Shown: in pieces, positions 18,590-49,504 of the stretch
How positions within the stretch are numbered: position 1 is the first letter of the stretch
How the letters are laid out: every line of letters begins with the position of its first letter
Translations under genes and position numbers: made by a program
The notes under the pieces: model-generated
Database searches by the model: none
What the model saw: only the letters and a program-made list of their open reading frames with translations
Told to the model about the DNA's origin: nothing
Source of the DNA: Vitis vinifera
Lineage: Eukaryota; Streptophyta; Magnoliopsida; Vitales; Vitaceae
DNA: 64,000 nt
Direction of reading: 5' to 3'
NCBI RefSeq assembly: GCF_030704535.1
Contig: NC_081810.1
Location: 806,501 to 870,500 of the forward strand

Positions 18590-21010
18590 ATGGCACCGTC
18601 ACCTGGTCTGATTTTATTTTATTTTAATTTTTTCCTATTTTCTTTGCTCATTGTTTGCTTTCAGATTTGGATCTAATGTTTTAGGGTTGGTAGATCTGAA
18701 GTAAAGCTTGCTGGAATCTGTGTTTAATACCAAAAGAATCAGTAAATAATTACAAATAATCCTCAAGATTTTAGGGTTAGAGGTTGTCAAGTGAAATTTT
18801 CGTATCTTTAAATTTAGGCTGTGATCCAATCGGCGTCCAGATCACATAACAGAGATTTCTGAAGGTTACATGATTTTTTTCTGTTCCTTTTTCTTTTCTT
18901 ACATTTTCTCGGAAACCAAACGGACAACGCGAATTTCATGAATTCTCTTTTCTGTACCATGACCATGAATCTGAGCTCAAATAACATACGTTTGATGTTT
19001 GGGAAATGGAAGCTGTGGGGAATTTTTTTTGTAAAACTTAATTGAGTTTGATAGAAACAGAGGTGAGGAGGATAAAATGGTTTGGAAAGCTTACAAGAGT
19101 GGGTGGTTCTCTGTGATGCGTTGGTAGCGGAGGGTGAAGCGACTTTCCTCTCAAAGATAATTTGGGGTTCGTGGGCTCCTACCCATAAAATTCCCTTGAG
19201 CCTCCCTTAGATAAAATAATTTACAATGATAACTCTCTTAGGGTTTAAATGATTTATTTTCTTATAATTGTCTCAGTGGAAATTTGGCCAAACCAAAAAA
19301 AACAAAAACAAAATAGAAAAAAAGAATCAAATACCTTTAATATATGATTAGTAAGAATACTGATGAGAAGATTTGTTGATGTTAATTCTTATGCCTTTTC
19401 TTTTGGATGTTTAAATATTATTTGTTTTGTTGTAAATTTTGTTTTTTGTTTTATGTGTAAATTTGCAATTGTCCTAATCAAATCAAATGTTTTATTTTGT
19501 TTTTATTTTCATGATTTAGGTTGGGTGATTATGGATAGAAGTTTAATGGCATGAGTGGAGTTGGAAAAGGTTTGTTATTTACCTATTTAATTCTGATAAG
19601 AAAATTTACTTATTTTTTTGTTTAATTTTGGAAAAATTAATGATACATATTGGTTTGATTAATTTGTTTAATAAATATTGTAAAAAAAAATAAAAAATTA
19701 TGAGTAGGTTAGGCTTGGTTTAGATATGCATTATGTTTTTTATTTTTAAAAATGGAAAATTTTATATAAAAAATAAAATAAAAAATAGAAATTTGTAAAC
19801 AAAAGTATAGACTTATACTTTTGCCTGGTAATAAATTTTTTTTAATACTTTAATTTTTTTTTAATTAGGTTTTAGAGAACATAAGATTTTCAAGTAAGTG
19901 TCTAAAAGTGTATCTAAATATAAATTTTCTAGTTTTAAAAGACCATTTAAATATTTTTATATACTACTTCAAACTTCTTTTACTTATTTAACTCTTTTAT
20001 ATAAATGTTAGATAATTTAAATATATACAAATTTTTTAATAATTTTAATTATATTAGACTTTCTTTCGTATTTTTCATTATAAAATCAAATATGAGAAAA
20101 TTATTTTTCTTAATATTTTTGTTTCCTTTCGTAGTACTTTTTGAAAACGAAACATAACTTAAACATGGGTGTTATTGCTATCCATTTTATTCAAATAACA
20201 CTTTTCTTTGTCACCCTTTATTTGAATTTTCGATTACCTTCGTAGATATAATCTTATATTAAGATGTGGACTCAAATAGACATATAGCAAAAAAAAAAAA
20301 AAAAAAAAAACAAAAAACAAAAAAACCACTGAGCATATAAATATAAAGAATAAGAATCTTGATAGCTTATTAATATATTTTCAATTATACTTAAAACATT
20401 TTGTTATTAATATATTTTAATTTGTTATCATATTGTTCATAAATTTCAAATATGTTTTTTATATTCTAATTATTCCATGCATTACATATTTTATCTTAAA
20501 TATGATTAATTCTAATAATGGATGAAATGATATTATATGATCTTATCCAAACTTGCTTGAAGAATTGATCTAATCAAACTTTTATAAATGATATAGACGA
20601 GCTCATATTGTTTAATTTCCAAAAAAGATTGTATAATTTCTTTTTCTTTTAAATATTGTTACACATTTTTTTGTGATAAATCTGAGTGAATTTCATGTTT
20701 TATTGTCATGACAGTGTCGCGGCAGCTTTTTTATTTTTTACCTACATTTATGGGTGCTGCTGACGAGAATGTTTCCCCATTTGCACGAGATCATATTGCA
20801 ATGCGAATCAAATCCTTGCAGTATTTGTATATTGTATCGTGCAGTACTAGTTGTAATTCACACTCAAAATTGTAGTTATTTTATCAGACAATATTAGGTT
20901 CCATGTAATTCACACTCAAAATTGTAGTTATCTCATTAGACGATATTAGGTTCTTGAGTTGGAACCTATGGAACCCTTTCTTTGACTTCAATATTCTTGA
21001 TTTTGGTGAT
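18590..21010 (+). pseudogene. TMP-family membrane protein gene, copy a (broken)
   Basis: A leader-like CT-rich stretch (about 18480-18589) precedes ATGGCACCGTCACCTG at 18590-18605, followed by GT. An exon after a CAG at about 20713 resembles exon 2 of the intact TMP gene at 34504: it shares ACATTTATGGGTGCTGCTG and CATTTGCACGAGATCAT-like words. Joining them gives MAPSP followed by a membrane-helix-like start, which then runs into a stop after several small deletions. The region near 20870-21000 keeps nucleotide similarity to the rest of the exon. The first exon is inferred by analogy with the 33551 gene. The copy cannot encode the full protein. Confidence 0.5.
19315..19665 (+). repeat. Direct repeat, right copy (partner 15985-16345)
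   Basis: About 360 bases matching 15985-16345 at moderate divergence, located in the intron of TMP copy a. No open frame is conserved between the two, which fits duplicated noncoding DNA. Confidence 0.7.
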
Positions 21011-21607
21011 GTCCTTAGTAAGGTGAAACTCAACTTACTTGATCTCATTGTGAATTTGACATGCTCATAAATTAAATCAACATTAACAATACAAATTTGA
21101 ATGGTTGCAGCAATATGAAGAGGAGGTCCATTTAGCTGATTATATGGTTATAATAATATGAAGAGGAAGTCCATTTAACTTATTGAATGGTTGTAACAAT
21201 GTAAATAGAGAGTCCAGTTAACTCATTGAAGATCACCTACAAAGTAAGCAAAATAAATGCAAAGGATTATTTTGGTTATCTATGGTGTTATTTTTTTTTT
21301 CTTTTTTTCATAAGCATTGTAATTTTGTCACTTGACTTTAAAAATTCAATGTTTGTGTAATAGAATTATCATTATCATTAGTTTATATATATATATTCAG
21401 AATTTGACACTCTATCCAGAGCACTTAGATAACTCAATTAATTTGGAATTTTTGATGGAAAAAAAATGAAAAACACACAAACCAACTCAACAGCTTATAA
21501 GCCATGCATACAATCTTTTAGGCAAATGTTGAATGTTGTGTATCATACATAATATATAGAGGGCACTGGGATGTTCAAATTTCTGAATACCAAGTGAAAC
21601 ACTGGTC

Positions 21608-24469
21608 TCAGCAGAAGGCATGTGTGTAGTCATGGAAATGGAAGGTTTTGTAGATGAAGTAAGACAACCACCTTGAAGCTGCAAAACATAGAATCGCCAT
21701 GGATACCGCTGTAATCCTTGCAGCCACTGACATCACACCATGGTTGATCACAGGAATCCCGATTAGAGCAATTGAGAAGATCTGCAACACCACCTCAAGC
21801 ACCTGGAGACCTTTATATGCAACACTACAGCTGCTGCAGTTCACCACATGAGACCAGTACCTGAAACAATATAATCCATGAAAAGCATTAGTTATATGAA
21901 GTGATAGTTCTGGTAGTTGACAATTTTGATACCTTTCCGTAGTCTAAAAAGATTCATCCCAAGCAAGAAAATTTCTTGCTTGTGTATGGAGTTTTTTGGA
22001 AATTTATGCTTCTTCTTCAAGTGGTTATGGATCTGTGAATCGAGGCTTTATCCTTTGTAATGACAATATTACACCCCATAAAAACATATAGAGAAACTTT
22101 CTTGATTCTCAAAGCATTGAAGAAGCTGACTTGAACCTGAAATTCAAGTCTTACCTGTCCATTAACTGCTCTTTAGGAGGAGTTGGGGGCAGGGCACTGC
22201 TGAAATTGGTTCCCCAATCAAGTTGGCCACCTGAGTACTTCCTCAACCATGCTCTGAAGGCAACGATGTGGGCATCCGACTTTGTTGGCACAAAACAAGC
22301 CTTGTGCCAGTTGGAAGGGCCAGCCTTCATAATCTTACGCTCCTACAGGAAACATACGAGATTCAGTAAAAACAAACTGGATGCAGTAAGCTTTCCAATT
22401 CTATGCTGATTGCCAAGAAGACTGTGTGAAGGCAAATAAAACTAGGGATATTAATTATAATGGGTGTTTCTGAAGAAGGTCGTGCGTGATTCTAAGTTTT
22501 CCTTTCCTCTCAACTTCCCAGCAACCAAACAAGGCATCAGGCTCCATTTGTTTTCTAGGAAGCTATGATGCCATAAAGCTTATCATGTTATATAGGCAGA
22601 AAATAACAATACGAACAGACAGGGGTTACCTCTAAATGGAGAAGATATAAATCTGAATCTAGAATAAGGTTTTGACTCATATGAAGCATCCATCGCGGAA
22701 TGATATGATCAGTCCACAATCCAAAGTTTCTTGGAAAAGTCCATATCAATCTGCTATTTCCTGGACTTACTGGAACACAGATAAGAATCAGAAGTGCTCT
22801 TTTTGGAGACATGTGAGACGATGGTTCCTGAACCAAACAAGTTAAAAGCAAATATGATTCAAATAAAGGGCAATTAAAGGAAAACAGCATAATTATTAAT
22901 TAATTAATAAGATCAACCTAATGGTTACCTCTTTGGTAAGGCCTGATGACACAGATTCATTACTTTGATATGCCGGAAAATCCAAACAGGTATAGTACAA
23001 ACAGGGTGGAATAAATTTGCTCCTGGCAAGCTCCCTCTCTGCATCAAAACCATCTATGGCTGATCTCTTCACACTGATCTCAATTGGTGTCCCCCCTTCT
23101 CTATCTGCCTTGGGTGTGAAAGAAAATCATGTGTGAGACAAATGAATTTCTCAGCTCTAAGCATCATAGTACAATAACAAAAACTGGACCTAGTTAGATC
23201 TGCTTATCTGTCTTTTGCCTGTGGAATTTGCACTATCCCGTAATGTGCATATGCAACATGAGCAGGGTCCATGACATTTTCCATCAGAATCTCATACCTG
23301 AATGACACCAATTTAGTTTACTCAGAAGAGTTTAAGATAATTAGTTCATGAAGTATAGGAGTGTTCGGCTAGATAACTGAGTCACTTATGCTTAATAAAG
23401 ATTCTTTCACATTTCATGACTTCTGCAGGCATCAGAAGGCTTTCTACACCCCCCAACTCTTTTCTCCTCACGCTGAAATATTTCTGTTTGGAAAAAGAGG
23501 ATTATAGAACTTGTGGATAGCAGTATCTCTACATACCCGAATGGAAAATCTCTAGCTCCCATCGACTTGGTATATGATAGGTCATCCAATTCTGGGATGT
23601 AAGGAGGCCTTTTCTTCGTAAAAATATCTTTGAATTGAGGATCGGTGTTTGGCCAAAACCAGACAATTCCATGCTGTACAGCACTTGGATAAACAGCTGC
23701 ACGTGCTTTCTTGAATGTGTGAACCTGCATACTTTGTCAAAAGCTACAATAAGAACTACATGCTGTTAATGTTTTACAAATTCAAGAGAAAATTCCAATT
23801 CATTACATTCATTGAAACACACTCAAGCATATAGATTCAGTTTTTTTGAGAGACTGGATTTGAATCCAGATCAGTATTTTGGAATTGTGAGAGATACTGG
23901 ATGTATGCCAGAATTATAACTCCTACAGATGCCAAATTTATTTTTACCGGAGGACCATCTGGGGGTGCCTGAGGAATGAATTTGCAGTCACCAGAGCCAT
24001 TAAAACACCAGCCATGGTACACACACTGCAACCGGCCCCACTGATCAATCCTCCCTTCAGACAATGGAGCCAACCTATGAGCACAAGCATCATCAAACAC
24101 TTTCCATTCACTTTCATTTCTATCCCACCACACAACTACATCAAGACCAATCACCCTCTTGGAATGCGGCTTTCTCTTGTCAAGATCACAGACTGGGGCA
24201 ACTGGATACCACTGTGAAAGCCAGTCAAACTTCTCTTCTCCATGGTGAGATGGTCTAGGCAAGTCCATGGCTTCACTTGAACTAGCGGAAGATCTGGCTG
24301 TGCAAGGCTTTGATTTTGAAAAGTTTCCACAAATTGATGAAAAAGAAGGATTGAGTAATGGATTAAAGGGAAGATGCAACAAGGGTTTGTCATATGACCT
24401 GGTATGAAATCTAGTTGGGAGCACTGACAAATGAAATGAAGGAAACGAGGGAGCTCTGAGAGCTTCCAT
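21608..24469 (-). CDS. PTC52: PTC52/ACD1-like chloroplast Rieske oxygenase, copy B
   Basis: Same family and exon plan as copy A. Exons: 23948-24469, 23537-23724, 23219-23297, 22929-23108, 22630-22827, 22155-22342 and 21608-21860. They total 535 residues, matching the length of the Arabidopsis protein. Rieske ligands C129, H131, C149 and H152 are present, but the second position reads CAHRL instead of CPHRL. The DPAHVAYAH iron motif (D247, H250, H255), the CSSC pair and two C-terminal helices remain. Exon 3 keeps frame only if it ends at CAG|GCAAAA, a GC-AG intron; a GT at ATA|GTGCAA is an alternative. Exon 5 is five codons longer than in copy A. The start is the ATG before EALRAPS. It is flanked by TMP copy a and a kinase remnant, the repeating unit of the array. 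Probably functional. Confidence 0.82.
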
Positions 24470-25465
24470 GGCTAACTCCTTTACCACTGTTTCTGCAATC
24501 ACACTCAAAATTCCAAATGATCATCTTACCACATAGTGGGGTTACAATAACAACATTTTCTAGACCACAGTATTTGAAAATTAATCCTGATCATTAAAAA
24601 TCAATAATTGGGATTTTGAGGATTAAGATTTTGAATGCATAATACAGGGGACAACAGTAATTTTCAATCTCTTCCGCAAAGTTGAGATGTTAAGATCTCC
24701 TCGACTGCCTCCACAAGACAGAAGAACATGGGCCACCCTTCCCAAAAAAGTATATCAACAGTGCAAATATAAAAGTGGGTCACAAATTCTGACATTGATT
24801 GGTGTCAAGTGGAGGCTAATAATTAGAAATTTCTAGCTAGTTGAAGTCCTTGAGGATGAATCATGACATTTGCCTGCTGGGGGTTCAGGATCTTTGCAAT
24901 GGTTTTTAGTAAGGTTTTGGTAAGTATTTGCATTCCACCATCAGAATAGCACCCACACTTGAAGGAGGTCCCAGTGAGAGTGAGAGTCATCTCCAAGTGT
25001 CACCTCAGCCCTGGCTGAACACCCAAGACACATAATGGACCTTGCCATCCTTTCTTGTCCGCATGTATACTGTGGCTCAAGGCTCTACATGTTGAATGAG
25101 TTCATTGTTTTCATCTAACACAGATTTTTTTTAGACTCAGCTCAAATTATTGGCCTCATCAATCTACCTGGAAAATTAAGCTAGTTGAGTATGCGAGCAA
25201 TAAAAACATTGACATGCTATAAGATTTCAGAAATGAAAATCTTATTGACAGTGAAAAGAAAAGATACAGACAGGCTCATCATCAGCATCCAAGGTAAAAG
25301 TCATAAAACATTTTCATTCAAATGTCAAAGTTGCTTGCACAATTTATATGATTCACACATTGCTGGAGTTAACCCCCAGTCATTCCCCTGCATTGCAGTT
25401 AAATGACGGGGCATGGGGCTGGTACAATAAGGATTCATGCTTCCAAATCAAATTTGGCATTCTTC
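24470..25465. other. Array spacer between PTC52 B and the kinase remnant
   Basis: PTC52 B promoter side plus the sequence that lies 3' of the kinase. It is closely similar to 39755-41149 and 46019-47071, showing that PTC52, spacer and kinase were copied together. No known coding sequence. Confidence 0.7.
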
Positions 25466-26190
25466 TAGGAAACTTCCTCAATCTCAGTTAAGACTCTTTC
25501 ATCCATCTGGCTCTCCTGTCTGAAAGGAAAAGCTGATGGAGGCCTATCTACTGAAAGTGTCCCTTCTATTACCTTAACTGCCTCCCCAATGGAAGGTCGT
25601 AAGAACGGTTGATTTTGCATACACTGCAAAGCTATCTTCACCACTGTTTCGACTCCTTCCCTCTCCTTGCTGCCCTTCAGTTTTTGTTCTTGATTCACCT
25701 TGTCAATTAAGTGGTGCAGATTGTCCCCATGATCTCTCGGGCATGTTACAGATTGCAGCAGCGTTACTCCAAACATGTAAATATCTCTCTCTGAGGGAGA
25801 CTCTGAAGAAGAAGCTGACTGCTCCTGGAGTAAGCTCTGAAGTCGAAAATCCATCAACTTAGGGACTAACTTCTCATCAAGCAATCATTCTTCAATTCAT
25901 CTTGTAGCTTCCCAAATCCACCATTTTCTTGAACCCGAAACTCCCTGAATCCATCCCATGTGAGCCAGTTCCCCAATTCAAAGAAGCTCATACAGACAAC
26001 CACAAACAGGTCCTGTAGAGCTGTACCCACATAAGCTTCACAAACCACAAGAACCAAACACACTGCACTGGTTCTCAACTGCCTGCCACCCTACTCACCA
26101 TGCCTGCATCATCCCATGAGAAAATTCTCAAGTTCCCATCTGAATAAATCCTAATATGCCTCCAAACCAGAGAAGGGTCTTCAAAATCGT
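25466..26190 (-). pseudogene. SD3-1-like receptor kinase remnant K1
   Basis: Two blocks of the receptor kinase at 47072-49504 are joined. The C-terminal kinase part (LLDEKLVPKLMDF through VLTEIEEVS, 25466-25880) follows directly after the EGF/early-PAN part (TGSHGMDSGSFG to DLGSYKMN, up to about 26190). The PAN remainder, transmembrane segment and N-terminal kinase lobe are missing. The same deletion point occurs in K3 at 41150-41890. DFG has become DFR and several shifts interrupt the rest, so no receptor can be made. The upstream edge at about 26190 is fused to PTC52 intron sequence. Confidence 0.85.
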
Positions 26191-27062
26191 TACTTGACTG
26201 TCGCAAGGATTCAACGAGCATAGTTTCTCTTCTTTACTTCTCCTTCCTTTTATCTTTATTTTCAGTGTTATGCAATCATTTTGATGGTAGAAACCTGAAG
26301 ATACTAGATATGAGTTCAGCCACATCGTTGCATACCCGCATGGAATATATCTGTTACCCTTTAACCTGATATATGATGGGCCATCCAATTATGGGATGCG
26401 GGGAGGCTTGTTCTTCAAAAGAATGTCTTTTTATTAAGGATCGGTTTTAGGCCAAAACCACACAATGTCATTCTGCACGGTACTTGGATAGACATCTACA
26501 CATGCTTCTTAAATGTGTGAATCTGCATATTATAATCAATTGGGTCTGAAAAGAATAGAGAATCTTGAAAGGGGAAAAGAGAAAAGGGCCATACTCTGCA
26601 ACCATAGACAAAAAGGGCGGGCAAGAATCTATGACCATAGTGCACAATGACTAAACAAAAAAGGGTCCATTTTTGGCTAGTGATTACCTGACGACCATCT
26701 AGTGGCGCGTGTGGAATGAATTTGCAGTCATCTGAGCCATTGAAATTCAAACCATGGTACACATACTGCAACTTGGCCCACTGATCAATCCTCCCTTGAG
26801 ACAGTGGAACCAACCAATGAGGACGCATATCATCAAACACCTTCCACGCATTTTCATTCCTGTCCCACCACTCCACCACATCCAGACCGCTCACCTTCTT
26901 AACATACGGAAACCTCTTGGTCAAGGATACCACTGCAACAGCCAATTGAATTTCACTTCCTGGCTGTGACTCTGGACCTCTGGCTCAACTGGGCTCATGG
27001 GTTCAGTCGAAACAGTGAATGAAATAGCGGTGAAAGGCCTGTATCTTGTAGTAATTTGCCGA
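26191..27062 (-). pseudogene. PTC52 5' fragment fused to kinase remnant K1
   Basis: It carries much of PTC52 exon 1 (about 26690-27062, including the Rieske region), intron 1, exon 2 (about 26340-26526) and part of intron 2. It is closer to copy A than to copy B, for example [17 protein letters not shown] and [12 protein letters not shown]. The first Rieske Cys is replaced by Arg (MRPH), exon 2 has stops and frameshifts, and exon 1 lacks the transit peptide. Intron 2 runs straight into kinase sequence, making an inactive chimera. Similarity ends abruptly at about 27062. Confidence 0.8.
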
Positions 27063-30000: not shown

Positions 30001-30439
30001 GATCTCAAATAGTGGATTTTAGATTAAAGGTCATAGACTCTACGATTTTTTTATTTCTACAATTGATATGGGGTTTTTCCATGTAAAATTTTTTGTGTCT
30101 CTTGCTTGATTGCTTTATTACTTTGATATTTGATTACTTTGGTCATCCCTGTTATCTTTTGATATTAAATTGGATTAATATTATTCAACTCTTATATTAT
30201 AATCTTTAAAAATCACCTATTATCCTCTCTAGGTGTAACCCTATTGGACAAACAGTTTTTTTTTTTTTTAAATGAAAACTGACCCAACCAAATTTCATAT
30301 TAAATAATTTAGATAAGTTCATATTATTTGAAAGAAAATGGTAGAACTTTTCTTTTTGTTTCAAATATTATTACATGTATCCTTTTGTGATAAATATAAT
30401 CAAATTTCTTATTTATTTTATTCTTACAACATTTTTTGC
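27063..30439. other. AT-rich region with decayed repeat sequence
   Basis: No credible gene. About 27780-28440 has an LTR-like layout with a TATAAATA at about 28055, and 28900-29480 contains a partly duplicated segment. The rest is low-complexity AT-rich DNA. Confidence 0.45.
27780..29560. mobile_element. Possible decayed LTR-type retroelement remnant (fossil)
   Basis: A promoter-like block with TATAAATACC near 28055 is followed by a CT-rich leader and then long non-coding sequence with no gag or pol similarity. A segment at about 28910-29120 recurs in a diverged form at about 29270-29430. This fits an old non-autonomous LTR element or piled-up LTR pieces, but clear termini were not found. 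It is broken and looks old. Confidence 0.25.
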
Positions 30440-30800
30440 GTAAGGTTAAGGTTTCATATTTTTGCTCTTTCCTTGCAAAATGTGATTGAAAGAATAATCT
30501 CCATTTTTAGGGGATAATATTTTATAATGTGGATCACATTCTTTGCAATATTTGCATGTTGTAGTATAGTTATGACTCATGAAAAGTTCAATACTCAAAT
30601 TATTAGTCATAATGATATTTTGGACGATATTAAATTCTTAAGTGGAACATTTGCTCCAACTTCTTATATTTGGGTAATGCATACTTGCATGAATCATTTT
30701 ATGACTTTGATGACATGCTCATAAATTAAAACAACTCTTAGATGGACACGAAGTTCATTTAACCCATTGAAGACCATATGTAGAATAAATTTAAAAGTTC
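30440..30800 (+). pseudogene. TMP-family fragment, copy b
   Basis: The plus strand at about 30540-30780 resembles exon 2 of the intact TMP gene. A diverged version of ILAVFVYCMVVIIHERFSPQIS (here as FAIFACCSIVMTHEKFNTQI) is followed by KFLSGTFAPTS, then the same 3' flank (TTTAACCCATTGAAGACCATA). The first helix and the last helices are missing or altered and no start is usable, so this is a relic. Confidence 0.7.
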
Positions 30801-32950: not shown

Positions 32951-32968
32951 CCAATCATACATGAGAAC

Positions 32969-35500: not shown

Positions 35501-36956
35501 ACTGAAGGCCGAAAAGATTAGCGGGAACCGCACACTTTTCAGTACATAGGCCTCCGTTATTCCTTTTCAGTCGACAACCTCACTGTCCTTTTTCAGTGGA
35601 AGAAGCAATCGTTTCAGCGGGAGGACAGAGAAAAGGTCATAGCTGCTGCATATTGGGTGTCGGCATTGTGGTTCGTTATAGAGAGAGTATATTGTCTCTG
35701 AAAGGGATTCTAAAAAAGGAAGCGAGACTGGGCGAGAGGAAGGAAAATTAGGAGTCTTTTAATAATTGTCAATTTAAGATGGTACGTACGGGGATTGTTT
35801 TTTTCTATATTTATATCCAAATTTAAATAAATTAAATAAAATTTTAAAAATTCTAACGTTTTATGCAATGCAATTATAATTGAATAATTGACAATTTCGT
35901 GGGTCCCATGTTGCAGATTAAGTGTGGAGTGGTTGTGCTGTTTTTCCTCCGTGTTTGAGAATGTGGGTCCCAATGGAGAAATCTAAGCAAAATGTGTCAT
36001 AGAGAATCTTGGTGGGTTTAATATTTTTATAAACTTTAAAAATGTGACGTGGCTATTCTTTTTTCTGAATTTAATTTTCTAATTTCAAAAGTTGGGTGAG
36101 AAGTTTTTATTTGTATGAATCATCTAACGTATGTAATTTGATATTTATTGAATACTACTATGAATCATCTAAATAATCAACATAACAAATTTAAAATAAG
36201 GAAATAAAATTAAATATTATGATTTTTTTCATCTAAAATATGTCTTTATACCTAAATATTATACATGCTCTATTCAATAAAATTTAAAATATTAATATTT
36301 TTATTTTTATAATTTAATTTAATATATCCAATAGAGAAATGAAATATTAAAAATTTTAATTATATATATTTTTAAAATTTCTTATAATTATTTTTAATTT
36401 TATATAATATATAAATTATATAATTATGACACCAATAATTCAACCGCAATTTAACCATCGATCAAACCTATGAATTATGAATCAATAACTTTTTTTATTC
36501 AATTACCAATATGATTCTAAATTTGTAAATTTGTGAGAGAAATTTGAGGGGTTTTTTTTATACCTAATTGAATTTGTAAATTTGTAATAATTGTGTTAAT
36601 AAAGTTGTAATATTTATAAATAAAAAAAAATCCAAAATATATGATGCATTCATCATAAAAATAAAAAGGCTATCAAAATAATCAAAGAGTTTATTTTTTT
36701 TTTTATCATTAAATCTAATCATACTTCTTGAATAGCTTAGTGTGACCTATCTTTAAACTAAGAATTAAACTCACAGCCCAACTCAGTGATCCGCTGGGTC
36801 TATTATAGAGCTGTCATAAACTAAATCAAGAGGCACAAGGCCAGTCCATTTACATGTATAATATAATAAAGTGGCATGAGAAACCACTTCATTCAATGCA
36901 TACCGTAGAGGGCAATGTGATGTTCAAATTTCTGAATAGCAAGTGAGACACTGGTG
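35501..36956. other. AT-rich spacer before PTC52 C
   Basis: No coding sequence recognised. The stretch near 36715-36770 (TCATTAAATCTAATCATACT and following bases) is similar to about 34260-34330 upstream of TMP exon 2, so it is part of the array. The rest is low-complexity AT-rich DNA. Confidence 0.5.
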
Positions 36957-39754
36957 TCAACAGAAGGCATGTACAGATGAAGAAAGACAAGCACCTTGAA
37001 GCTGCAAAGCATATGGCTGCCATGGATACCAGTGTAGTCCTTGCAGCCACTGACATCATGCCATGGTTGACCGCAGGAATCCCAATTAGAGCAACTGAGA
37101 AGATCTGCAACACCATCTCAAGCACATGGAGACCTTTGTATGAACACTGCATCTGCTGCACTTCACCACATGAGACCAGTACCTGAAACAATAAAATCCA
37201 TGAAAAGCATCAGTTATATGAACTTACACTTACTGTTAGTCGAAGATTTTGATATGTTTGTCTCATCTAAAATGATTCATCACAAGCACAAAAAGCCTGT
37301 GTATGGAGTTTTTTGACATTTTCTTTACCACTTCAAGTGGTTATGGATCTGTGAATCAAAGCTTTATCCATTGTAATGGAAATATTTCACCCGAACAGGG
37401 TATATGGAGAAACTTTCTTGATTCTCAAAGCATTGAAGAAGCTAACTCGAACCTGAAATTCAAGTCGTACCTGTCCATTAACTGCTCTCTGGGAGGAGTT
37501 GGAAGCAGGGCCATGCTGAACTCGGTTCCCCTATCAAGTTGGCCACCGGAGTACTTCCTCAACCATGCTCTGAAGGCAACGGTGTGGGCATCTGACTTTG
37601 TTGGCAAAAAATAAGGCTTGTGCCAATTTGAAGGGCCTAATCTTAAGCTCCTACAGGAAACACACGAGATTCAGGAAAAACAAACTAGATGTAGTATGCT
37701 TTCCAAGTCTACACTGATTTCCAAGAAGACGTGTTAAAGGCAAATAAAACTAGGGATATTGATTACAATTCTGGAAAAGGGGTTACATGATTCCAAGTTT
37801 TCCTTCCCTCTAACTTCTCAGCAATCAAACAAGGCATCAGGCTCCATTTGTTTTCTAGGAAGCTACGATGCCATAAAGCTTATCATGTTACCTAGGCAGA
37901 AAATAACAATACAAACAGACAGGAGTTACCTCTACATGGGGAAGATATAAATCTGAATCTAGAATAAGGTTTTGCCTCATATGAAGCATTCATCGTGGAA
38001 CAATACGATCAGTCCACAATCCAAAGTTTCTTGGAGAAGTCCATATCAATCTGCTATTTCCTGGACTTACTGGAACACAGATGAGAAACAAAAGTGCACT
38101 TTTTGGAGACACATGAGACGACGGTTCTTGAACCAAACAAGTAAAAAGCAAATATTATTCAAATAAAGGACAATTAAAGACAAACCGCGTAATTACTAAC
38201 TAACTAATATGATCAACCTAATGGTTACCTCTTTGGTAAGGCCTGATGACACACATTCATTACTTTAATATGCCAGAAAATCCAAACAAGTATAGTACAC
38301 ACAGGGTGGAATAAATTTGCTCCTGGCAAGCTACCACTCTGCATCAAAACCATCTATGGCTAGTCTCTTCATCTGATCTCAACTGGTGTCCCCCCTTCTC
38401 TATCTGCCTTGGGTGTGAAAGAAAATCATGTGTGAGATAAATGAATCTCTCAATCCCAAGCATCATAGTACAATAACTAAACCTAGGCCTAGTTAGATCT
38501 GCTTATGTCTTTTGCTTGTGGAATTTGCATTATCCCGTAATGTGCATTTGCAACATGAACAGGGTCCATGACATTTTCCATCAGAACTCATACCTGAATG
38601 ACACCGATTTAGTTTACTCAGAAGAATTTAAGATAATTAGTTCATGAAGTATAGGAGTGTTCGGCTAGATAACTGAGTCACTTATGCTTAATAAACATTC
38701 TTTCACATTTCATGACTTCTGCAGGCATTAGAAGGCTTTCTACACCCCCCTACTCTTTTCTCCCCTTGCTGAATAAGTTAAAAACTATATTTCTGTTTGG
38801 AAAAAAGAGGACTATAGAACTTGTGGATAGCTGTATCTCTACATACCCGAATGGAAAATCTCTAGCTCCCTTCGACTTGGTATATGATAGGTCATCCAAT
38901 TCTGGGATGTAAGGAGGCCTTTTATTCATAAGAATATCTTTGAATTGAGGATCGGTGTTTGGCCAAAACCAGACAATTCCATTCTGCACAGCACTTGGAT
39001 AAACAGCTGCACGTGCTTTCTTGAATGTGTGAACCTGCATACTTTGTCAAAAGCTACAATAAGAACTACATGCTGTTAATGTTTTACAAATTCAAAAGAA
39101 AAATCCAATTCATTCCATTCATTGAAACACACTCAAGCATATAGATTCAGATTTTTTGAGGGATTGGATTTGAATCCAGATCAGTATTTTGGAATTGGGA
39201 GAACTACTGGATGTATGCCAGAATTATAACTACTGCAGATGCCAGATTTATTTTTACCGGAGGACCAGATAGGGGTGCCTGCTATTAAAACACCAGCCAT
39301 GGTAGACACACTGCAACCGGCCCCACTGATCAATCCTCCCTTCAGACAATGGAGCCAACCTATGAGCACAAGCATCATCAAACACCTTCCATTCACTTTC
39401 ATTTCTATCCCACCACACAACCACATCAAGACCCATTACCCTCTAGGCATGCGGCTTTCTCTTGTCAAGATCACAGACTGGGCCAACTGGATACCACTGT
39501 GAAAACTAGTCAAATTTCTCTTCTCCATGGTGAGATGGTCTAGGCGACTCCATGGCTTTGCTTGAACTAGCGGAAAATCTGGCCGTGCAAGGCTTTGTTT
39601 TTGAAAATTTTCCACAAATTGATGCAAAAGAAGAATTGCGTAATGGATTAAAGGGAAGATGCAACAAGGGTTTGTCATATGACCTCGAAGGAAATCTAGT
39701 GGTGAGCACTGACAAATGAAATGAAGGAAAAGAGGGAGCTCTAAGAGCTTCCAT
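36957..39754 (-). pseudogene. PTC52-like Rieske oxygenase, copy C (pseudogene)
   Basis: All seven exons can be aligned to copy B at high nucleotide identity, so decay is recent. Exon 1 (about 39254-39754) has in-frame stops at 39506-39508 and 39443-39445, and lacks the segment after GWCFN. Exon 2 (38847-39034) is open. Exon 3 has a one-base deletion near 38587, exon 4 lacks two bases near 38375, and exon 5 has a Trp-to-stop change near 37990. Exons 6 and 7 also carry small indels. The Rieske C/H residues survive as sequence, but no full protein is possible. It forms one array unit with TMP copy c and K3. Confidence 0.92.
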
Positions 39755-41149
39755 GGCCAACTCCTTTACCACTGTTTCTGCAATCACACTCAAAATTCCA
39801 AATGATCATATTACCACATAGTGGGGGTACAATAACAACATTTTCTAGACCACAGAGTATTTGAAAATTAATCTTGGTCATTATAAACAAAAAATTGAGA
39901 TTTTGAGGATTAAGATTTTGAATGCATAATACAGGGGACAACAGTAATTTTCAATCTCTTCCACAAAGTTGAGATGTTAAGATCTACTCAACTGCCTCCA
40001 CAAGACAGAAAAACATAGGGCACCCTTCCAAAAAATGTAAACCAGCAGTGCAAACATAAAAGTGAGTCACAAATTCTGACCTTTGTATTGTCTATTTTTG
40101 AACATCAGACACATTGATTGGTGTCAAGTGGAGGCTAATATGTCACAAAGTAGATATGTTGCTTCATTTTGCTTCTCCTTGATGTCTTCTAAAATTCTTC
40201 TCAACCATATGGCTTGAGAAGTTGCCAATGAAGCTGAAATGTACTCTGCTTCAGCAGAGGATTGAGCCACTGAACCTTGCCTTTTTGAGACCCAAGATAT
40301 AACACCTGAACCAAGGGAAAATAACAAGCATAAAAAATGTTTTCATCAGTCTCTTTCTCCTTAGCACAGCTTGCTTGTTGATTGTTCTTAAATCTGCAAT
40401 CTTTTTGAACATGCCCAAATTTTTTACAATTGAAGCATTGAGGCTTCCCTTAGTTATTTTTACATATATAACCTAAACACAGCATAGACACATTATGTTA
40501 CATAATAATTAGAAATTTCTAGCTAGTTGAAGTCTTTGAGGATGAATCATGGCATTTGCCTGCTGGGGGTTCAGGATCTTTGCAATGGTTTTAGTAAGGT
40601 TTTGGTAAGTATTTGCATTCCACCATCAGAACAGCACCCAAATTTGAAGGAGGTCCCAGTGAGAGTGAGACTCACCTCAAAGTGTCAGCTCAGCCCTGGC
40701 TGAACACCAAAGACACATAATATACCTTGCCATCCTTTCTTGTCTGCATGTATACTGTGACTCAAGGCTCTTCATGTTGAATGAGTTCATTGTTGCCATC
40801 TAACACAAAGACAATTTTTTTAGACTCAGCTCAAATTATTGGCCTCATCAATCTACCTGAAAACTTAAGCTTGTTGAGTATGCGAGTAATAAAACATTGA
40901 CATTCTATAAGATTTCAGAAATCAAAGTCTTATTGACAGTGAAAAGAAAAGATACAGACAGGCTCATCACCAGTATCCAAGGTAAAAGTGATAAAACATT
41001 TTCATTTAAATGTCAAGGTTGCTTACACCTTTGATAAGATTCACACATTGCTGGGGTTAACCCCCAGTCATTCCCCTGCATTGCAGTTAAATGACGGGGC
41101 ATGGAGCTGATACAATAAAAACTCATGCTTCCAAATCAAATTTGGCATT
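39755..41149. other. Array spacer between PTC52 C and kinase remnant K3
   Basis: Counterpart of 24470-25465 and 46019-47071, interrupted by a retroelement fragment at about 40142-40500. No host coding sequence recognised. Confidence 0.7.
40142..40500 (-). mobile_element. Broken Ty1/copia retrotransposon fragment (fossil)
   Basis: The minus strand carries a copia-type RNase H block ([20 protein letters not shown]) and, just upstream of it, a CCHC zinc-knuckle block of the gag type (CFNCKKFGHVQKDC). These parts are normally far apart, so most of the element is absent. The empty site is visible in the paralogous spacers at 24820 and 46405, where GAGGCTAAT continues directly into AATT. The element is clearly broken, and it inserted after the array units were duplicated. 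Confidence 0.85.
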
Positions 41150-41890
41150 CTTCTAGGAAACTTCCACAATCTCAGTTAAGACTCTTTCATCCATCTGGCT
41201 CTCCTGTCTGAAAGGAAAAGCTGATGGAGGCCTATCTACTGAAAGTCTCCCTTCTAATACCTTAACTGCCTCCCCAATGGAAGGTCGTAAGAACGGTTGA
41301 TTTTGCATACACTGCAGAGCTATCCTTGCCACTGTTTTCACTCCTTCCCTCTCCTCGCTGCCCTTCAGTTTTTGTTCTTGATTCATCTTGTCAATTAAGT
41401 GGCGCAGATTGTCCCCACGAACATCTCTCTGGCACGTTACAGTTTGCAGCAGCTTTACTCCAAAAATGTAAATATCTCTCTCTGAGGGAGACTCTGAAGA
41501 AGAAGCTGGCTCCTCCTAGAGTAAGTTCTGACGTCCAAAATCTTTCAACTTAGGGACTAACTTCTCATCAAGTATTCATTCTTGTATTCATCTTGCAGTT
41601 TCCCAAATCCACCATTTTCTTGCACCCAAAACAGCCTGAATCCATCCCATGAGAGCCAGTTCCCCAATTCAAAGAAGCTCATACAGACAACCACAAACAG
41701 GTCCACTAGAGCTGTACCCACATAAGCTTTACAAACCACAAGAACCAAACACACTGCACTGGTTCTCGACTGCCTGCCACCCCACTCACAATGCCTGCAT
41801 CATCCCATGAGAAAATTCTCAAGTTCCCATCAGAATAAATCCTAAGATGCCTCCAAACCAGAGAAGGGTCTTCAAAATCCTTACTTGACT
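41150..41890 (-). pseudogene. SD3-1-like receptor kinase remnant K3
   Basis: Same structure as K1: the C-terminal kinase lobe (KLVPKL through VLTEIVEVS, 41153-41570) is joined to the EGF/PAN start (about 41575-41890) at the same deletion point. Internal stops and frameshifts prevent translation as a receptor. Identity of junctions with K1 shows common descent from one deleted copy. Confidence 0.87.
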
Positions 41891-42360
41891 GTCACAAGGA
41901 TTCAAAGAGCATAGTTTCTCTTCTTTACTTCTCCTTCCTTTTATCTTTATTTTCAGTGTTATGCAATCATTTTGATTGTAGAAACATGAAGATACTAGAA
42001 ATGAGTTCCGCCATATTGTTGCATACCCGCATGGAATATATCTGTTACCCTTTAACCTGGTATATGCTGGGCCATCCAATTCTGGGATGTAGGGAGGCTT
42101 GTTCTTCAAAAGAATGTCTTTGTATTAAAGATTAGTTTTAGGTCAAAACCACACAATGTCATTCTGCACAGTACTTGGATAAACAGCTACACATGCTTCT
42201 TAAATGTGTGAATATGCATATTATAATCAAGTCTGAAAAGAATAGAGAATCTTGAAAGGGGAAAAGAGAAAAGGGCCATACTCAGCAACCATGGAAAAGA
42301 CGAAGGGCAAGAATCTATGACCAACAAAAAAAAAAGGTCGATTTTTGGCGAGTGATTAAA
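41891..42360 (-). pseudogene. PTC52 intron/exon 2 fragment fused to kinase remnant K3
   Basis: It contains part of PTC52 intron 2, exon 2 (about 42025-42215, with lost frame) and intron 1. It stops where exon 1 would begin (about 42360), so it is shorter than its sister at 26191-27062. The kinase-PTC52 junction (ACTTGACTGTCACAAGGA) is the same in both. Confidence 0.82.
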
Positions 42361-42547
42361 GATGCCATCAGACCACTCCATTTATAGGCTTAATGTTTTA
42401 TGTTGTCTAACATATAGAGAATTTGTTGTCATGATCTCGGTAGATGAAATGAGATTGTATAATATTGTCCAAATTTATAAAGAGAATTAATCTAATCTAC
42501 TTTCATAAATGATCTGAATAAGTTCGTATCATTTAACTTCCGAGAAG

Positions 42548-42973
42548 ATGGTAGAACTTGGCAGTCTTTCACAGGCTTTCGTATTTTTACTTGCATTTGT
42601 GGGTGCAGCTGTCATTGCAAAATAGGATTAGGAAAACGAATCTCCATTCACACGATATTATATTGCAATGCGAAGAACATACTTATGTTCTTCGCAGCAT
42701 TTATATATGGTATAGTGACTTCAATTCACCAAAACCTTTAGCATTCGAATCTGGAATCATCTCACTATTTCAGGCAACAGCTTCTTGAGTGGAACTATTA
42801 TTCTGACTTCAATGTTCTTGATCCTAGTTCCACCTTTTGGCTGGCTACCTTTTATCGTTTGGGTGATATTCTTAGTAAAGGTGGCATTCTATCTGCGGAA
42901 TCCATTTTATCACGTTGAGATGCTTATGAATCAAGATGGTGACTGCAACAATATGAAGAGGAAGTCCATTTGA
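42548..42973 (+). pseudogene. TMP-family membrane protein fragment, copy d
   Basis: From an ATG at 42548 the frame reads MVELGSLSQAFVFLLAFVGAAVIAK and then stops. A later frame gives FLSGTIILTSMFLILVPPFGWLPF and ends at 42973, both similar to the intact copy at 34504-34906. Small indels in between break the frame. It lies between the K3 chimera and PTC52 D. Confidence 0.8.
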
Positions 42974-43079
42974 CCCGTTGAAGATCATGTATTATGTAGA
43001 ATAAATTCAAGGAGTTATTTTAGCTCATTATTATGTTTTTCTTTTATTTTCGAAAGCATTGTAACTTCATTGCACTAAA

Positions 43080-46018
43080 AGTTTGAAGCTGAAAAGCATA
43101 GGACTGCCATGAATACCAGTGTAGTCCCTGCAGCCACCGACATGACACCATGGTTTATGGCAGGAATCCTGATTAGAGCAATTGAGAAGATCTGCAACAC
43201 CACCTCAAGCACATGAAGACCTTTGTATGCAACAGCTGCTGCAGTTCACCACATGAGACCACTACCTGAAACAATATAATCCATTTAAAGCATTAGTTAT
43301 ATGACCTGATACTTACTGGTAGTGGACGGTTTTGATACCACTGTCTCGTCTAAAAAGATTCATCCCAAGCAAGAAAAGCTTGTGTATGGAGTTTTTTTGA
43401 AATTTTCTTTATTTCTTCAATTGGTTATGGATTAGTGAATCAAAGCTTTATCCATTGTGATGGAAATATTTTACCCAAAAAAGGTATATAGAGAAACTTT
43501 CTTGATTCTCAGGGCATTGAAGCTAACTCGAACCTAAAATTCAGGTCTACTCCATCAGGTAGCTTAGTTGGTCAGGGCTAACACTGGGACTTATAGTCCC
43601 AATAAGTGGCACATGGTCCTGGATTCGAAACCTATCACTTATGATACCCATAATTTACCCAGTGCTGATTGTTGCGGGACGGTCAGCACCCCAAGGTTTG
43701 GATCCCTATGGAAAGAGTCCTAGAGGCTTGGCCATGGAATCCTTGGTTATCAAAGAAAAAAAAAATTCAAGTCTTGCCTGTCCATTAGCTGCTCTCTGGG
43801 AGGAGTTGGGGGCAGGGCCCTGCTGAGTGCTTCCTCAACCATGCTCTAAAGGCAATGATGTGGGCATCTGACTTTGTTGGCATAAAACAAGCCTTCTGCC
43901 AATTGGAAAGGCCGGCCTTCATAAGCTTATACTCCTACAGGAAACACACGAGAAAACTAGGGATAATAATTCTAGCGAGATTGTTTAGAATAGGTGTCGC
44001 ATGATTCCAAGTGTTCCTTTCCTCTTAACTACTCAGCAATCAAACGAGGCAAGGCATCGGGCTCCATTTGTTTCCTTGGAAGCTATGATGTCATAAAGCT
44101 TATCATGTTACCTAGACAGAAAATAACAATACAAATAGATGGGAGTTACCTCTACATGGGGAAGATATATAGCTGAATCTAGAATAAGGTTTTGCCTCAT
44201 ATGAAGCATCCATCATGGAACCATACAATCAGTCCACGGTCCAAAGTTTCTTGGAGAAGTCCATATCAATCTGCTATTTCCTGGACTTACTGGAACACAG
44301 ATAAGAATCAAAAGTGCTCTGTTTGGAGACACATGAGGCAATGGTTCCTGAACCAAACAAGTTAAAAGCAAATATGATTCAACTAAAGGGCAATTAAAGA
44401 AAAACAGCATAACTTCTAACTAATAAGATCAACCTAATGGTTACCTCTTTGGTAAGGTCTGATGATACAGATCCATTACTTTGATATGCCGGAAAACCCA
44501 AACAAGTATAGCACAAACAGGGAGGAATAAATTTGCTCCTGGCAAGCTCCCGCTCTGCAACAAAACCATCTATGGCTATTCTCATCACACTGATCTCAAT
44601 TGGTGTCCCCCCCTTCTCTATCTGCCTTGGGTGTGAAAGAAAATGTGTGAGATAAATGAATCTCATTCATACTAGGCAACATAGCAAAATAACTAAAACT
44701 AGGCCTAGTTAGATCTGGCTCATCTGTTTGCCTGTGGAATTTGCATTATCCTGTAATGTGCATATGCAAGGTCCATGATATTTTCCATCAGAACCTCGTA
44801 CCTGAATGACACCGTTTTAGTTTACACGAGAGAATTTAAGATAAGTAGTACATGAAGTACAGGAGTGTTCAGGTAGAAAACTTATTTGTCACATTAAAAC
44901 TTATTAGTCACATATGATTAATAATGATTCTTTCATATTTCATGACTTCCACATGCATTAGAAGACTTTCTACACCCCCAACTCCTTTTCTCCCCTTTCT
45001 GGATGAGTTAAAACATGCATTTTCCAGTTTGGAAAAAGAGGACTAGAGAACTTGTAGATAGCTGTATCTCTACATACCTGAATGGAAAATATCTAGCTCC
45101 CATGGACTTGGTATATGAGGGGTCATCCAATTCTGGGATGTAAGGAGGCTTTTTCTTTGTAAGAATATCTTTGAATTGAGAATCAGTGTTTGGCCAAAAC
45201 CAGACAATTCCATTCTGCACAGCACTTGGATAAACAGCTGCACGTGCTTTCTTGAATGTGTGAACCTGCATACTTTGTCAAAAACTACAATAAGAAGTAC
45301 ATGCCATTAATGTTTTACAAATTCCAAAGAAAAATCCAATTCGTTCCATTCATTCAAACACACTCAAGCATATAGATTCAGATTTTTTGAGGGATTGGAT
45401 TTGAATCCAAATCAGTGTTTTGGATTTGGGAGAGCTACTGGATGGATGTATGTCAGAATTATAACTACAACAGATGCCAAATTTATTTTTACCGGAGGAC
45501 CATCTGGGGGAGCCTGAGGAATGAATTTGCAGTCACCAGAGCCATTGAAACACTGCCCATGGTACACACACACTGCAACTGGCCCCACTGATCAATCATC
45601 CCTTCAGACAATGGAGCCAACCCATGAGCACAAGAATCATCAAACACCTTCCATTCACTTTCATTTCTATCCCACCACACAGCTACATCAAAACCCATCA
45701 CTCTCTTGGCATGCGGCTTCCTCTTGTCAAGATCACAGACTGATGCAACTGGATACCACTGAGAAAACCAGTCAAACTTCTCGTCTCCTCCATGAGATGG
45801 TCAAGGTGAGTCCATGGCTTTGCTTGAACTACTGGAAGATATGACTGTGCAAGGCTTTAATTTTGAAAAGTTTAAACAAATTGATGAAAAAGAAGAATTG
45901 GGTTATGGATAAAAGGAAGATGCAACATGGGTTTGTCATATGGCCTCGTAGGAAATCTGGTTGGGAGTATTGACAAATGAAGTGAAGGAAGAGAGGGAGC
46001 TCTAAGAGCTTCCATGTC
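43080..46018 (-). pseudogene. PTC52-like Rieske oxygenase, copy D (pseudogene)
   Basis: Exon order matches copy B. Exon 1 (45492-46018) has frameshifts in the transit-peptide part and a two-base insertion in the CVYHGW region near 45571. Exon 2 (45078-45265) is open. Exon 3 (about 44730-44800) has lost nine bases that include the first histidine of the iron motif. Exon 4 has an extra C near 44608, and exon 6 lacks about a dozen codons near 43825. A SINE sits between exons 6 and 7. Exon 7 (about 43080-43265) lacks its end. It cannot make an active enzyme. Confidence 0.9.
43549..43761 (+). mobile_element. tRNA-derived SINE with poly-A tail
   Basis: It starts with an RNA polymerase III A-box (TAGCTTAGTTGG at about 43560), then a B-box (GGATTCGAAACC at about 43621-43632), and ends in an A-run near 43755. 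Flanking copies of AAAATTCAGGTCT (43536-43548) and AAAATTCAAGTCT (43762-43774) form a 13-base target duplication with one mismatch. It inserted into pseudogene PTC52 D. A related truncated copy lies at 10090-10185. Confidence 0.85.
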
Positions 46019-47071: not shown

Positions 47072-49504
47072 CTAGGGAACTTCCTCAATCTCAGTTAAGA
47101 CTCTTTCATCCATCCGGCTCTCCCGTCTGAAAGGAAAAGCAGACGGAGGCTTATCTACTGAAAGTGTGCCTTCTAATACCTTAACTACCTCCCCAATGGA
47201 AGGCCGTAAGAATGGTTGATTTTGCATACACCACAAAGCTATCCTCACCACTCTTTCTACTCCTTCCCACTCCTCGCTGCCCTTCAGTTTTTGTTCTTGA
47301 TTCATCTTGTCAATTAAGTGGTGCAGATTGTCCCCATGAACATCCCTCTGGCATGTTAAAGTTTGCAGCAACATTACTCCAAACATGTAAATATCTCTCT
47401 CTGAGGGAGACTCTGAAGAAGAAGCTGGCTCCTCCTGGAGTAAGCTCTGTAGTCCAAAATCCATCAACTTAGGGACTAACTTCTCATCAAGCAAGACATT
47501 CTCCAGCTTCATATTTCCATGAGCAATGCATGTTTGGCACTCTGTGTGTAAATAAGCAAGGGCTCGTGCTACTCCAAGGGCAATATCAAGCCTCTGCTGC
47601 CAATCCACTTCATTTTGGTTCCACTTTGTGCTAAAAAGCAACTCATCCAGAGATCCATTTGGGATGTACTCGTAAAGCAAAAACTTGTGTTCTGGCTCAA
47701 AACAAAACCCCTTTAGTGATACAAGGTTTCTATGGTGGGTGCCACCCAAGGTTGAAACTGCCACCCGGAAATCCTTCTCAGATGCAACTACATTATTTAG
47801 CACCTTGGCAACTACTGGTGTCTTGTTTGGGAGTACACCTTTAAAAACAGAGGGCCCAAGCTGAGTTGCAAAGTTAGCAGTCAGCTCTTTTATCTCTTCA
47901 AAGGATAATCTAATAAGAACACTGTAATGAGAATTCATCTGAGCATCCTTCCCAAAGGGAATTCTCGTCTGAGCCTCAATTTTCCGTCTCCGATGGATAA
48001 ACCAAAACACAAACATCTCCATGGTCAGAAAGCCCACGAGCGTTACCAGAACTATTAAAGCAATAGCTTCCACAAATTTCTTACTATTAGCTCCATAAGC
48101 AAAGTATCTTTTGGACAACATTTGAATTTGCCCTGAATTACCATGGGGGTTAGCACTGTGAGCTAAAACTGCCTGAGGGACCAAACACACCTTCAAGAAT
48201 GAAGTAGCAGGGACAGAAGGATTCCTATACCCGCTGATAAAGCTTGTTCTTTTGATTGTGCAAAGACCCGAGCCATCATTCTTTGAAGTTACGGCAATGC
48301 AAGTAGTATCATTGGAGCAGTACTCTCTGCAAGCTTCCTCACTTAACATGATATCAACATCTTGAGGGGGATAGAGACCGTAAAGGACCGTTCGTTTCAG
48401 AACCATCATGCTTGTATTCATTTTACAGTTTCCCAAATCCACCATTTTCTTGCACCCAAAACTACCTGAATCCATCCCATAAGAGCCAGTTCCCAAATTC
48501 AAAGAATCCTCATACAGACAATCACAAACAGGTCCAGTAGAATTGTACCCACATAAGCTATACAAACCACAAGAACCAAACACATTGCATTGGTCCTCAA
48601 CTGCCTGCCAACCTACTCTCCATGCCTGAATCACATTATCCCACGAGTAAATTCTCAAGTTCCCATCAGAATCAATCCTAAGATGCCTCCAAACCAGAGA
48701 AGGGTCTTCAAAATCCTTACTCGACTTGGACCAGACAGTTCTATTAGCACTATCAAATAGTCCTAAAACCCCATTAGAGTCAAATCGGGCTTCTTTAACA
48801 ATGACAGAGGAACTCAACTGAGCATGACTCCTCCAATAGGTCACATTGTTCTCCCACACTAGGGCAAGCTCACCGGATCCGCGAATCACAAAACTATAGT
48901 AGCTTGAAATTGTTTTTGTTGAAGGGGCCCTAAGGGTTTGAGGGAAATGGAGTGACTGACCAGGAAGAAGAGTGCTTGTGGGGCTATTAAAGCTCTCCCA
49001 AAGCACTTTATCTGCATTGCCCAAGAGCACCAGGTTCCCATTGTCCAAAAGGCTAGCTTTTTGAACACCCAAACCAGAGGTGTTACTACTCCAGACAACC
49101 AACCCGTTAGGGTTTTCAACCAAGACTAGCCTCCCATCCATGGAAAGCCTAAGTGTGGAGTTTTCAGAAACTCTGAGTCCCCCACCAATAGTCCAAACTG
49201 GCTTATTTGCAGCCCTGGTACCTAAGTTATACCCAATACCAACCACAAACCCATCAACACCATCAACTTTCTCACAACCCTCCAAGAACCCAAATGCAAA
49301 AACCCCATTGTGAGACACCCAAATCCTACTGCTATCAAACCCAGAAATCTCAAATCCAAGAGGCACAGAAACCATTGGAACCACATCACAAGACCCAGAA
49401 AATGCAAAACCCAGTAGTAAAATCACAGCCAAAACAAAGCTCTTACCTCCAAAATGCCTGATGGGTGTCTCAGGACACAGCTGACTAACCCCAACCACAC
49501 ACAT
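47072..49504 (-). CDS. SD3-1: G-type lectin S-receptor-like kinase, SD3-1 type (probable pseudokinase)
   Basis: An 810-residue intronless plasma-membrane receptor. It has a signal peptide (about 20-40), a B-lectin domain (about 40-160), an EGF-like Cys cluster (about 305-330), a PAN domain (about 345-440), a transmembrane helix (about 473-500) and a kinase-like domain from about 535. The ATP-binding Lys is present (VVAKVL, about 566), as is DFG (about 683). The glycine loop reads LGPSVFKG and the catalytic loop reads HGNMKLEN (about 662), so the catalytic Asp is replaced by Asn. No APE motif is visible. It probably signals as a pseudokinase. The start is the first ATG in the frame, at 49504. 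It is the only complete member among four kinase-derived segments here. Family assignment is firm; ligand unknown. Confidence 0.9.
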   Translation of the reverse strand: MCVVGVSQLCPETPIRHFGGKSFVLAVILLLGFAFSGSCDVVPMVSVPLGFEISGFDSSRIWVSHNGVFAFGFLEGCEKVDGVDGFVVGIGYNLGTRAANKPVWTIGGGLRVSENSTLRLSMDGRLVLVENPNGLVVWSSNTSGLGVQKASLLDNGNLVLLGNADKVLWESFNSPTSTLLPGQSLHFPQTLRAPSTKTISSYYSFVIRGSGELALVWENNVTYWRSHAQLSSSVIVKEARFDSNGVLGLFDSANRTVWSKSSKDFEDPSLVWRHLRIDSDGNLRIYSWDNVIQAWRVGWQAVEDQCNVFGSCGLYSLCGYNSTGPVCDCLYEDSLNLGTGSYGMDSGSFGCKKMVDLGNCKMNTSMMVLKRTVLYGLYPPQDVDIMLSEEACREYCSNDTTCIAVTSKNDGSGLCTIKRTSFISGYRNPSVPATSFLKVCLVPQAVLAHSANPHGNSGQIQMLSKRYFAYGANSKKFVEAIALIVLVTLVGFLTMEMFVFWFIHRRRKIEAQTRIPFGKDAQMNSHYSVLIRLSFEEIKELTANFATQLGPSVFKGVLPNKTPVVAKVLNNVVASEKDFRVAVSTLGGTHHRNLVSLKGFCFEPEHKFLLYEYIPNGSLDELLFSTKWNQNEVDWQQRLDIALGVARALAYLHTECQTCIAHGNMKLENVLLDEKLVPKLMDFGLQSLLQEEPASSSESPSERDIYMFGVMLLQTLTCQRDVHGDNLHHLIDKMNQEQKLKGSEEWEGVERVVRIALWCMQNQPFLRPSIGEVVKVLEGTLSVDKPPSAFPFRRESRMDERVLTEIEEVP

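Follow-up and report, generated by a model that had tools for sequence, protein, structure and literature searches.

Two of the three gene families that meet in the stretch of grapevine (Vitis vinifera) DNA described here have described relatives. PTC52, whose counterpart is At4g25650, belongs to a class of ACD1-like Rieske oxygenases with Rieske and PaO domains, and four tandem PTC52 repeats are reported from rice in the accessible part of one paper (PMC6530659). SD3-1, or AtG-LecRK-I.3 (At2g41890), has lost catalytic residues and carries HGN in place of HRD, according to the accessible part of another (PMC5889549), and the pseudokinase state of the SD3-1 family is not new because this loss is already in print. 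The window, by which the whole 64-kb stretch analyzed is meant, covers C6:806501-870500 of a genome of 495.6 Mb in 21 contigs, and it holds copies of both genes, the one for a chloroplast oxygenase and the other for a lectin receptor kinase, together with those of a third, TMP, for a small membrane protein. Tandem duplication with breakpoints inside genes and with short matches at the join is a known process. How far can its traces be read in such an array? An original prediction, made from the letters alone, had seen here a TMP (+), PTC52 (-), kinase (-) order repeated three times, with one working copy of each gene in the array, and had explained it by block duplication followed by complementary loss. 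We think it probable that the locus instead arose by nested tandem duplications whose breakpoints fell within genes, so that some copies were dead on arrival. The array is real, much of its history is readable, and the processes are all known ones.

The junction common to the truncated kinase copies

In a self-BLAST of the window, long colinear diagonals show that blocks of PTC52 and kinase are repeated: 21557-24796 matches 36906-40083 at 89% identity, 24817-26686 matches 40503-42358 at 92%, and 22438-25903 matches 43953-47515 at 86% (E = 0.0 in each case). Taken by unit, pieces of unit 1 (21557-26686) are 89-92% identical to unit 2 (36906-42358), and those between 21673 and 26199 are 78-88% identical to unit 3 (43083-48726). 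The dot-plot check that had been set beforehand thus leaves the array standing, and the predicted gene order is found at all three places. It is to be noted that the pieces outnumber the three units: there are four kinase copies (K1-K4), six pieces of PTC52 (A, B, C, D and the 5' relics R1 and R2) and four TMP copies (a-d; Table 1).

K1 and K3 begin at one identical point, ...CTTG(C/T)GAC-AGTC-AAGTAA(C/G)GATTTTG, whose left side comes from the second intron of an A-type PTC52 and whose right side from the middle of SD3-1; the 4-bp match AGTC at the join is present in both parents. The same stretch of about 890 bp of K4 (about 48405 to 47495) is missing from both, and a Tyr-to-stop change and a 1-bp deletion are common to K1, K2 and K3. 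The PTC52 relics fused to them are clearly of A type, R1 being 86.5% and R2 87.1% identical to A but only 63-68% to B, C and D. Judged from the sequence, one junction made both K1 and K3 chimeric and truncated; they were broken from birth and are not two independent losses; independent death of the two copies is ruled out by the common junction together with the common deletion of about 890 bp. If a tandem duplication had one end within A and the other within the kinase, the resulting chimeric junction should be flanked by undamaged parents; A is indeed intact to the left of the chimeric junctions, and K4 to the right.

The common junction and deletion, the lesions, the relative divergences and the constraint on B are seen in the sequence itself; from them we infer in what order the ancestral genes stood, how many exchanges there were and of what molecular kind. 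The ancestral locus would have had both an A-type and a B-type PTC52 beside the pseudokinase gene SD3-1, and TMP copies of greater age would have stood close by. A tandem duplication from intron 2 of PTC52 A to the middle of SD3-1, joined via AGTC, may then have produced a kinase without its 5' part fused to a PTC52 5' half (K|R), flanked by intact A and intact K4. Of the DNA between the breakpoints, the B-type PTC52 and the kinase are repeated. The non-coding Jukes-Cantor (JC) distances of A-R, B-D and C-D agree with one another (0.139-0.163). Among the introns of A, R1 and R2 the distances range from 0.081 to 0.163, and among the kinase 3' flanks from 0.067 to 0.099.

Table 1. Positions in the window of the gene copies, relics and divergence step
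Feature	Position	Strand	Description
PTC52 A	10447..13880	-	intact, seven exons, 532 aa; parent of R relics; outside the interval of the original prediction
TMP a	20521..21350	+	relic
PTC52 B	21608..24469	-	intact, seven exons, 541 aa; omega ~0.49 on own lineage
Step in B-C divergence	22494..22494		in PTC52 intron 5; 6.5% (149/2277) right, 13.5% (120/888) left; 0/2000 shuffles
K1	24817..26199	-	truncated SD3-1 copy with ~890-bp internal deletion
R1	26196..27062	-	5' half of A-type PTC52 fused to K1; AGTC common at 26196-26199
TMP b	30265..30794	+	relic
TMP c with flanks	34338..35036	+	open frame, ATG 34538 to stop 34906
K2	35090..35500	-	kinase scrap; stop and 1-bp deletion common with K1 and K3
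PTC52 C	36906..39754	-	broken; on B's frame 5 stops, frameshifting indels, one acceptor lost
K3	40503..41890	-	truncated SD3-1 copy; junction and deletion as in K1
R2	41887..42358	-	5' part of A-type PTC52 fused to K3
TMP d	42443..43073	+	relic
PTC52 D	43083..46015	-	broken; on B's frame 4 stops, frameshifting indels, donors of exons 3 and 6 changed, 3' end missing
K4	47072..49504	-	intact SD3-1 gene, single uninterrupted frame of 810 codons ending at 49504; HGN for HRD

Between PTC52 C and K3 there is an insertion (40140-40503) that does not occur in unit 1, and by eye it reads as retrotransposon scraps resembling a gag zinc knuckle and RNase H.

A proposed younger exchange between units 1 and 2

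The chimeric piece occurs twice, and the divergence between PTC52 B and C points to how it may have spread. The differences change abruptly at 22494, and none of the 2000 shuffles reaches such a split, while the corresponding splits of B-D and C-D are reached by 336 and 339 of 2000. The non-coding distance is 0.104 for B-C against 0.156 for B-D and 0.139 for C-D, and it is 0.081 for R1-R2 and 0.067 for K1-K3; the sites informative against A unite B with C in 48 cases, C with D in 25 and B with D in 23. The young stretch continues through K1/K3 (6.4% apart) and R1/R2 (8.1% apart). This fits an unequal crossover or a gene conversion with its edge in PTC52 intron 5. Such a younger exchange between PTC52 copies, with its left edge in that intron, would have copied everything to the right of the edge, namely the PTC52 5' part, the truncated kinase and R, which now stand in both units 1 and 2. 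After the exchanges, PTC52 C and D would have decayed and B would have been held by purifying selection, while A and K4 stayed intact. A B-type protein of V. rotundifolia (P0127) covers 16 sites at which B differs from C and D, these two being alike, and carries the B residue at 11 of them, that of C and D at 4 and a different one at the remaining site; at the 11 sites A has the C/D residue in 4 cases, the B residue in 4 and neither in 3. The 11 sites suggest that the separation of B from C and D probably predates that of the two grape species; some further changes are common to C and D alone.

Several points weigh against this course of events. If one duplication separated them, the flanks of K1/K3 and K4 (0.085-0.099) are expected to differ as much as B/C do from D and A from R (0.139-0.163), and they are closer. 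The tandem duplication should also have doubled the spacer that separates A from B, but a search for its second copy gave, apart from TMP, only one 38-bp match, and the spacer from A to TMP a recurs by these 38 bp alone. K2 has the stop and the 1-bp deletion of K1 and K3, yet it is about 20% from each of K1, K3 and K4 alike, for which conversion between copies may be the explanation. C and D agree with each other, and not with B and A, at 25 sites, and some of the residues they share stand where V. rotundifolia B also has the state of A.

Might conversion, then, account for the whole array? According to such a model, old three-gene units existed from early on, and later gene conversion homogenized their PTC52 and kinase parts and left TMP divergent. 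The B-C step at 22494 does reveal exchange between units, K2's mixed position hints at conversion, and TMP adjoins PTC52 in every unit. However, the K|R junction and the A-like relics require a duplication or an exchange involving A anyway, the divergence of B-D and of C-D is nearly uniform along the gene, and no PTC52 or kinase DNA was found beside TMP relatives in the 18 loci examined of the 31 that lie outside the window. We therefore regard this model as unlikely, though it is the best of the alternatives to nested tandem duplication.

TMP copies and the surviving genes

TMP has another history. The six pairs of TMP copies show JC distances of 0.377-0.624 in the open reading frame region and 0.312-0.518 in the flanks, against 0.067-0.163 for the non-coding parts of the PTC52-kinase blocks. 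The genome search gave 34 TMP matches, three in the window (b, c and d, while a is unlisted) and 31 outside: C15 has 22 of these, C12 five, and C5, C6 (at 986 kb), C8 and C9 one each. Given these larger distances and the matches outside, TMP was not copied with the blocks; TMP a-d are far older than the blocks around them and come from a separate family that is dispersed in the genome. A DNA tree built from 19 copies, the four in the window and 15 of the 18 outside loci, places each window copy nearest to the other window copies, with end branches of 0.14-0.34; it carries a long-branch warning and does not prove one clade for a-d. TMP d is closer to the protein P0244 (35/49) than to c (28/47), and c is closer to P0242 (35/47) and P0243 (36/47) than to d; the lineages of c and d therefore seem to have parted early. 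Six protein relatives of TMP were found in a large protein search, and no Pfam family matched. Outside the window, the C8 and C9 copies have 2.8 kb in common at 94%, and three C12 copies 3.5 kb at 94-96%, as if they had been copied recently in larger segments.

What, then, became of the idea that a block of TMP, PTC52 and kinase was copied twice entire and different members were lost in each unit? The order does recur three times, and the lone TMP relic expected near 30.4 kb is there, as a match at 30.27-30.79 kb. The survivors lie in different units as predicted, the open TMP c in unit 2, PTC52 B in unit 1 and K4 in unit 3. That each gene has one working copy holds inside the array, where the other copies are broken, but PTC52 A is intact as well just outside it. 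Block duplication likewise stands for PTC52 and the kinase only, since the distances among the TMP copies are several-fold those of the blocks and TMP occurs elsewhere without PTC52 or kinase, as far as the 18 examined outside loci go. Complementary loss is not supported: K1 and K3 owe their truncation to one common junction and deletion, and PTC52 is kept also by A. Reciprocal loss presupposes that each copy was functional at duplication, and K1 and K3 share both truncation and deletion; units 1 and 2 therefore never had a working alternative to K4. If three survivors are drawn at random and independently, they fall in three different units with a probability of 3!/27 = 6/27 = 0.22, and a pattern with a 22% chance, combined with the truncated K1 and K3 and with A outside the array, needs no special cause. 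Copying of the whole block is thus very improbable, and whole-unit duplication with complementary loss was rejected on the TMP ages and on the kinase truncation common to K1 and K3. An assembly artefact, a single locus or stacked haplotypes, can be dismissed, for no supporting point was found, a divergence of 6-14% with private lesions is not that of haplotypes at a single locus, V. rotundifolia B shares the residue of B at 11/16 sites, and the genome is in 21 contigs, those listed being chromosome-sized.

The intact genes and their neighbourhood

The array and its surroundings keep two intact PTC52 genes and one intact SD3-1 gene. PTC52 A and B, 67% identical as proteins, have the Rieske CxH...CxxH and mononuclear-iron NxxDxxHxxxxH motifs in an intact frame, the Rieske letters in the gene models being CPH/CAH...CVYH; the motif forms of PTC52/ACD1-like oxygenases are those given in the accessible part of PMC6530659. 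The PaO domain (PF08417) was found in P0121, which is 99% identical to B, with E 6.1e-29, in a scan that did not take in the whole A protein. PTC52 B stayed under purifying selection: its lineage has 17 synonymous and 26 non-synonymous changes (omega ~0.49; one-sided binomial p 0.02), whereas omega is 0.99 on the C lineage (13 synonymous, 35 non-synonymous, 5 stop) and 0.78 on that of D with its stem included (27 synonymous, 59 non-synonymous, 6 stop). When C and D are projected on B's frame, no stop is common to them. Intron 3 of A (12377-12468, -) and of B (23116-23207, -) is 92 nt long in each, starts with ATAAGC and ends with CAC, and we take it to be an AT-AC intron with a U2-like donor; C retains its AT/AC, while the donor is gone in D. 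The UniProt entry F6GUK6 (Vitis vinifera, 463 aa) is the predicted B protein except for a later start and 11 skipped residues, a near-identity by which the host is taken to be grapevine, and it omits residues at the join of intron 3 that P0121 (552 aa) retains; P0121 lies on contigs no longer than 1871 nt and is therefore intron-free. This corrects a gene model of grape, in that PTC52 has an AT-AC intron.

When 20700-22700, a segment with TMP a and the 3' half of B, was used in a DNA search, all places found lay in the window but one, 76 bases at C6:986 kb that match the TMP flank. A and B do not group when their proteins are placed in a 53-row tree with 51 others chosen by hand among 120 of the 1514 PTC52 homologues, but a clade of A and B is not rejected by the approximately unbiased test (p 0.23), and the backbone of the tree is poorly supported. 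A PTC52 relative in Salvia is annotated by name as flavonoid 8-hydroxylase. One might speculate that B, a Rieske oxygenase, has acquired a new substrate and was spared while the array around it decayed, in a neighbourhood of SD3-1 and PTC52 that much of the angiosperms would have in common.

K4 has B_lectin, S_locus_glycop and kinase domains above the cut-off, and PAN_3 at 19.3, below its cut-off of 21.1. A search of the genome (71 matches, with 56 of 1805 candidates scored) gave no other close copy that is intact; among full-length relatives the next one has 40% identity, kinase domains alone reach 47% in some cases, and K1 and K3 are recovered at 83-84% with stops. The catalytic Asp of HRD is absent, which makes K4 a predicted pseudokinase, and the 120 listed of 286 homologues have at this position HGN in 102 cases, HGS in 4, HRN in 4, HGC in 1 and HGD in 1, the pattern not being found in 8. 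K4 belongs to the SD3-1 family, whose pseudokinases are already described in Arabidopsis.

SD3-1 and PTC52 occur on equal-sized contigs in at least 14 species, as matched by eye among 120 of 286 SD3-1 and 120 of 1514 PTC52 homologues, where equal-sized chromosome-scale contigs show the same chromosome only and rows without a partner prove nothing. The locus tags of the two genes follow directly on one another in Jatropha, Paulownia and Reevesia, while those in Turnera are two apart; the Hevea contig with both is 95 kb long, and in Tetracentron a single model (P0006) passes from SD3-1 into a decayed PTC52. With this linkage, the near-consecutive tags and the P0006 fusion, the placing of SD3-1 beside PTC52 looks old and widespread in angiosperms. 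On the minus strand at 59979-62712, exons resemble by eye the N-terminal region of P0007, a Nyssa model in which that region is joined to SD3-1; conservation may therefore extend to the gene that flanks SD3-1 on its other side. Left of the array stand a LOG-like gene (1.4-5.2 kb), recognized by eye alone, and one with DUF7074, DUF7075 and O-FucT matches (6926-8647). Two tandem repeats lie at 32968-33477 (130-bp period, 3.9 copies, 99%) and 33729-33966 (80-bp period, 3.0 copies, 97%). Our literature search found no paper naming both the protochlorophyllide-dependent translocon and SD3-1, and none joining SD3-1, grapevine and lectin receptor.

As seen on this one resolved locus, gene copies truncated by duplication itself can mimic complementary loss, and any claim of reciprocal loss should wait for a check of divergence and of common breakpoints. 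The apparently old neighbourhood of SD3-1 and PTC52 is a candidate for functional testing. Compared with the At4g25650 system, grape likewise has the Rieske and PaO domains, with the motifs intact in A and B, but it retains two intact copies, 67% identical, beside broken ones. K4 resembles At2g41890 in its B-lectin, S-locus and kinase domains and in HGN for HRD, the latter as described in PMC5889549, whereas grape SD3-1 has in addition truncated copies fused to PTC52 sequence. Unlike the usual tandem duplication with intragenic breakpoints, the grape locus has a spacer whose expected duplicate is no longer recognizable and a chimeric piece that occurs twice, presumably because of the second exchange; like it, the locus keeps a short match at the join and a chimeric copy between two intact parents.

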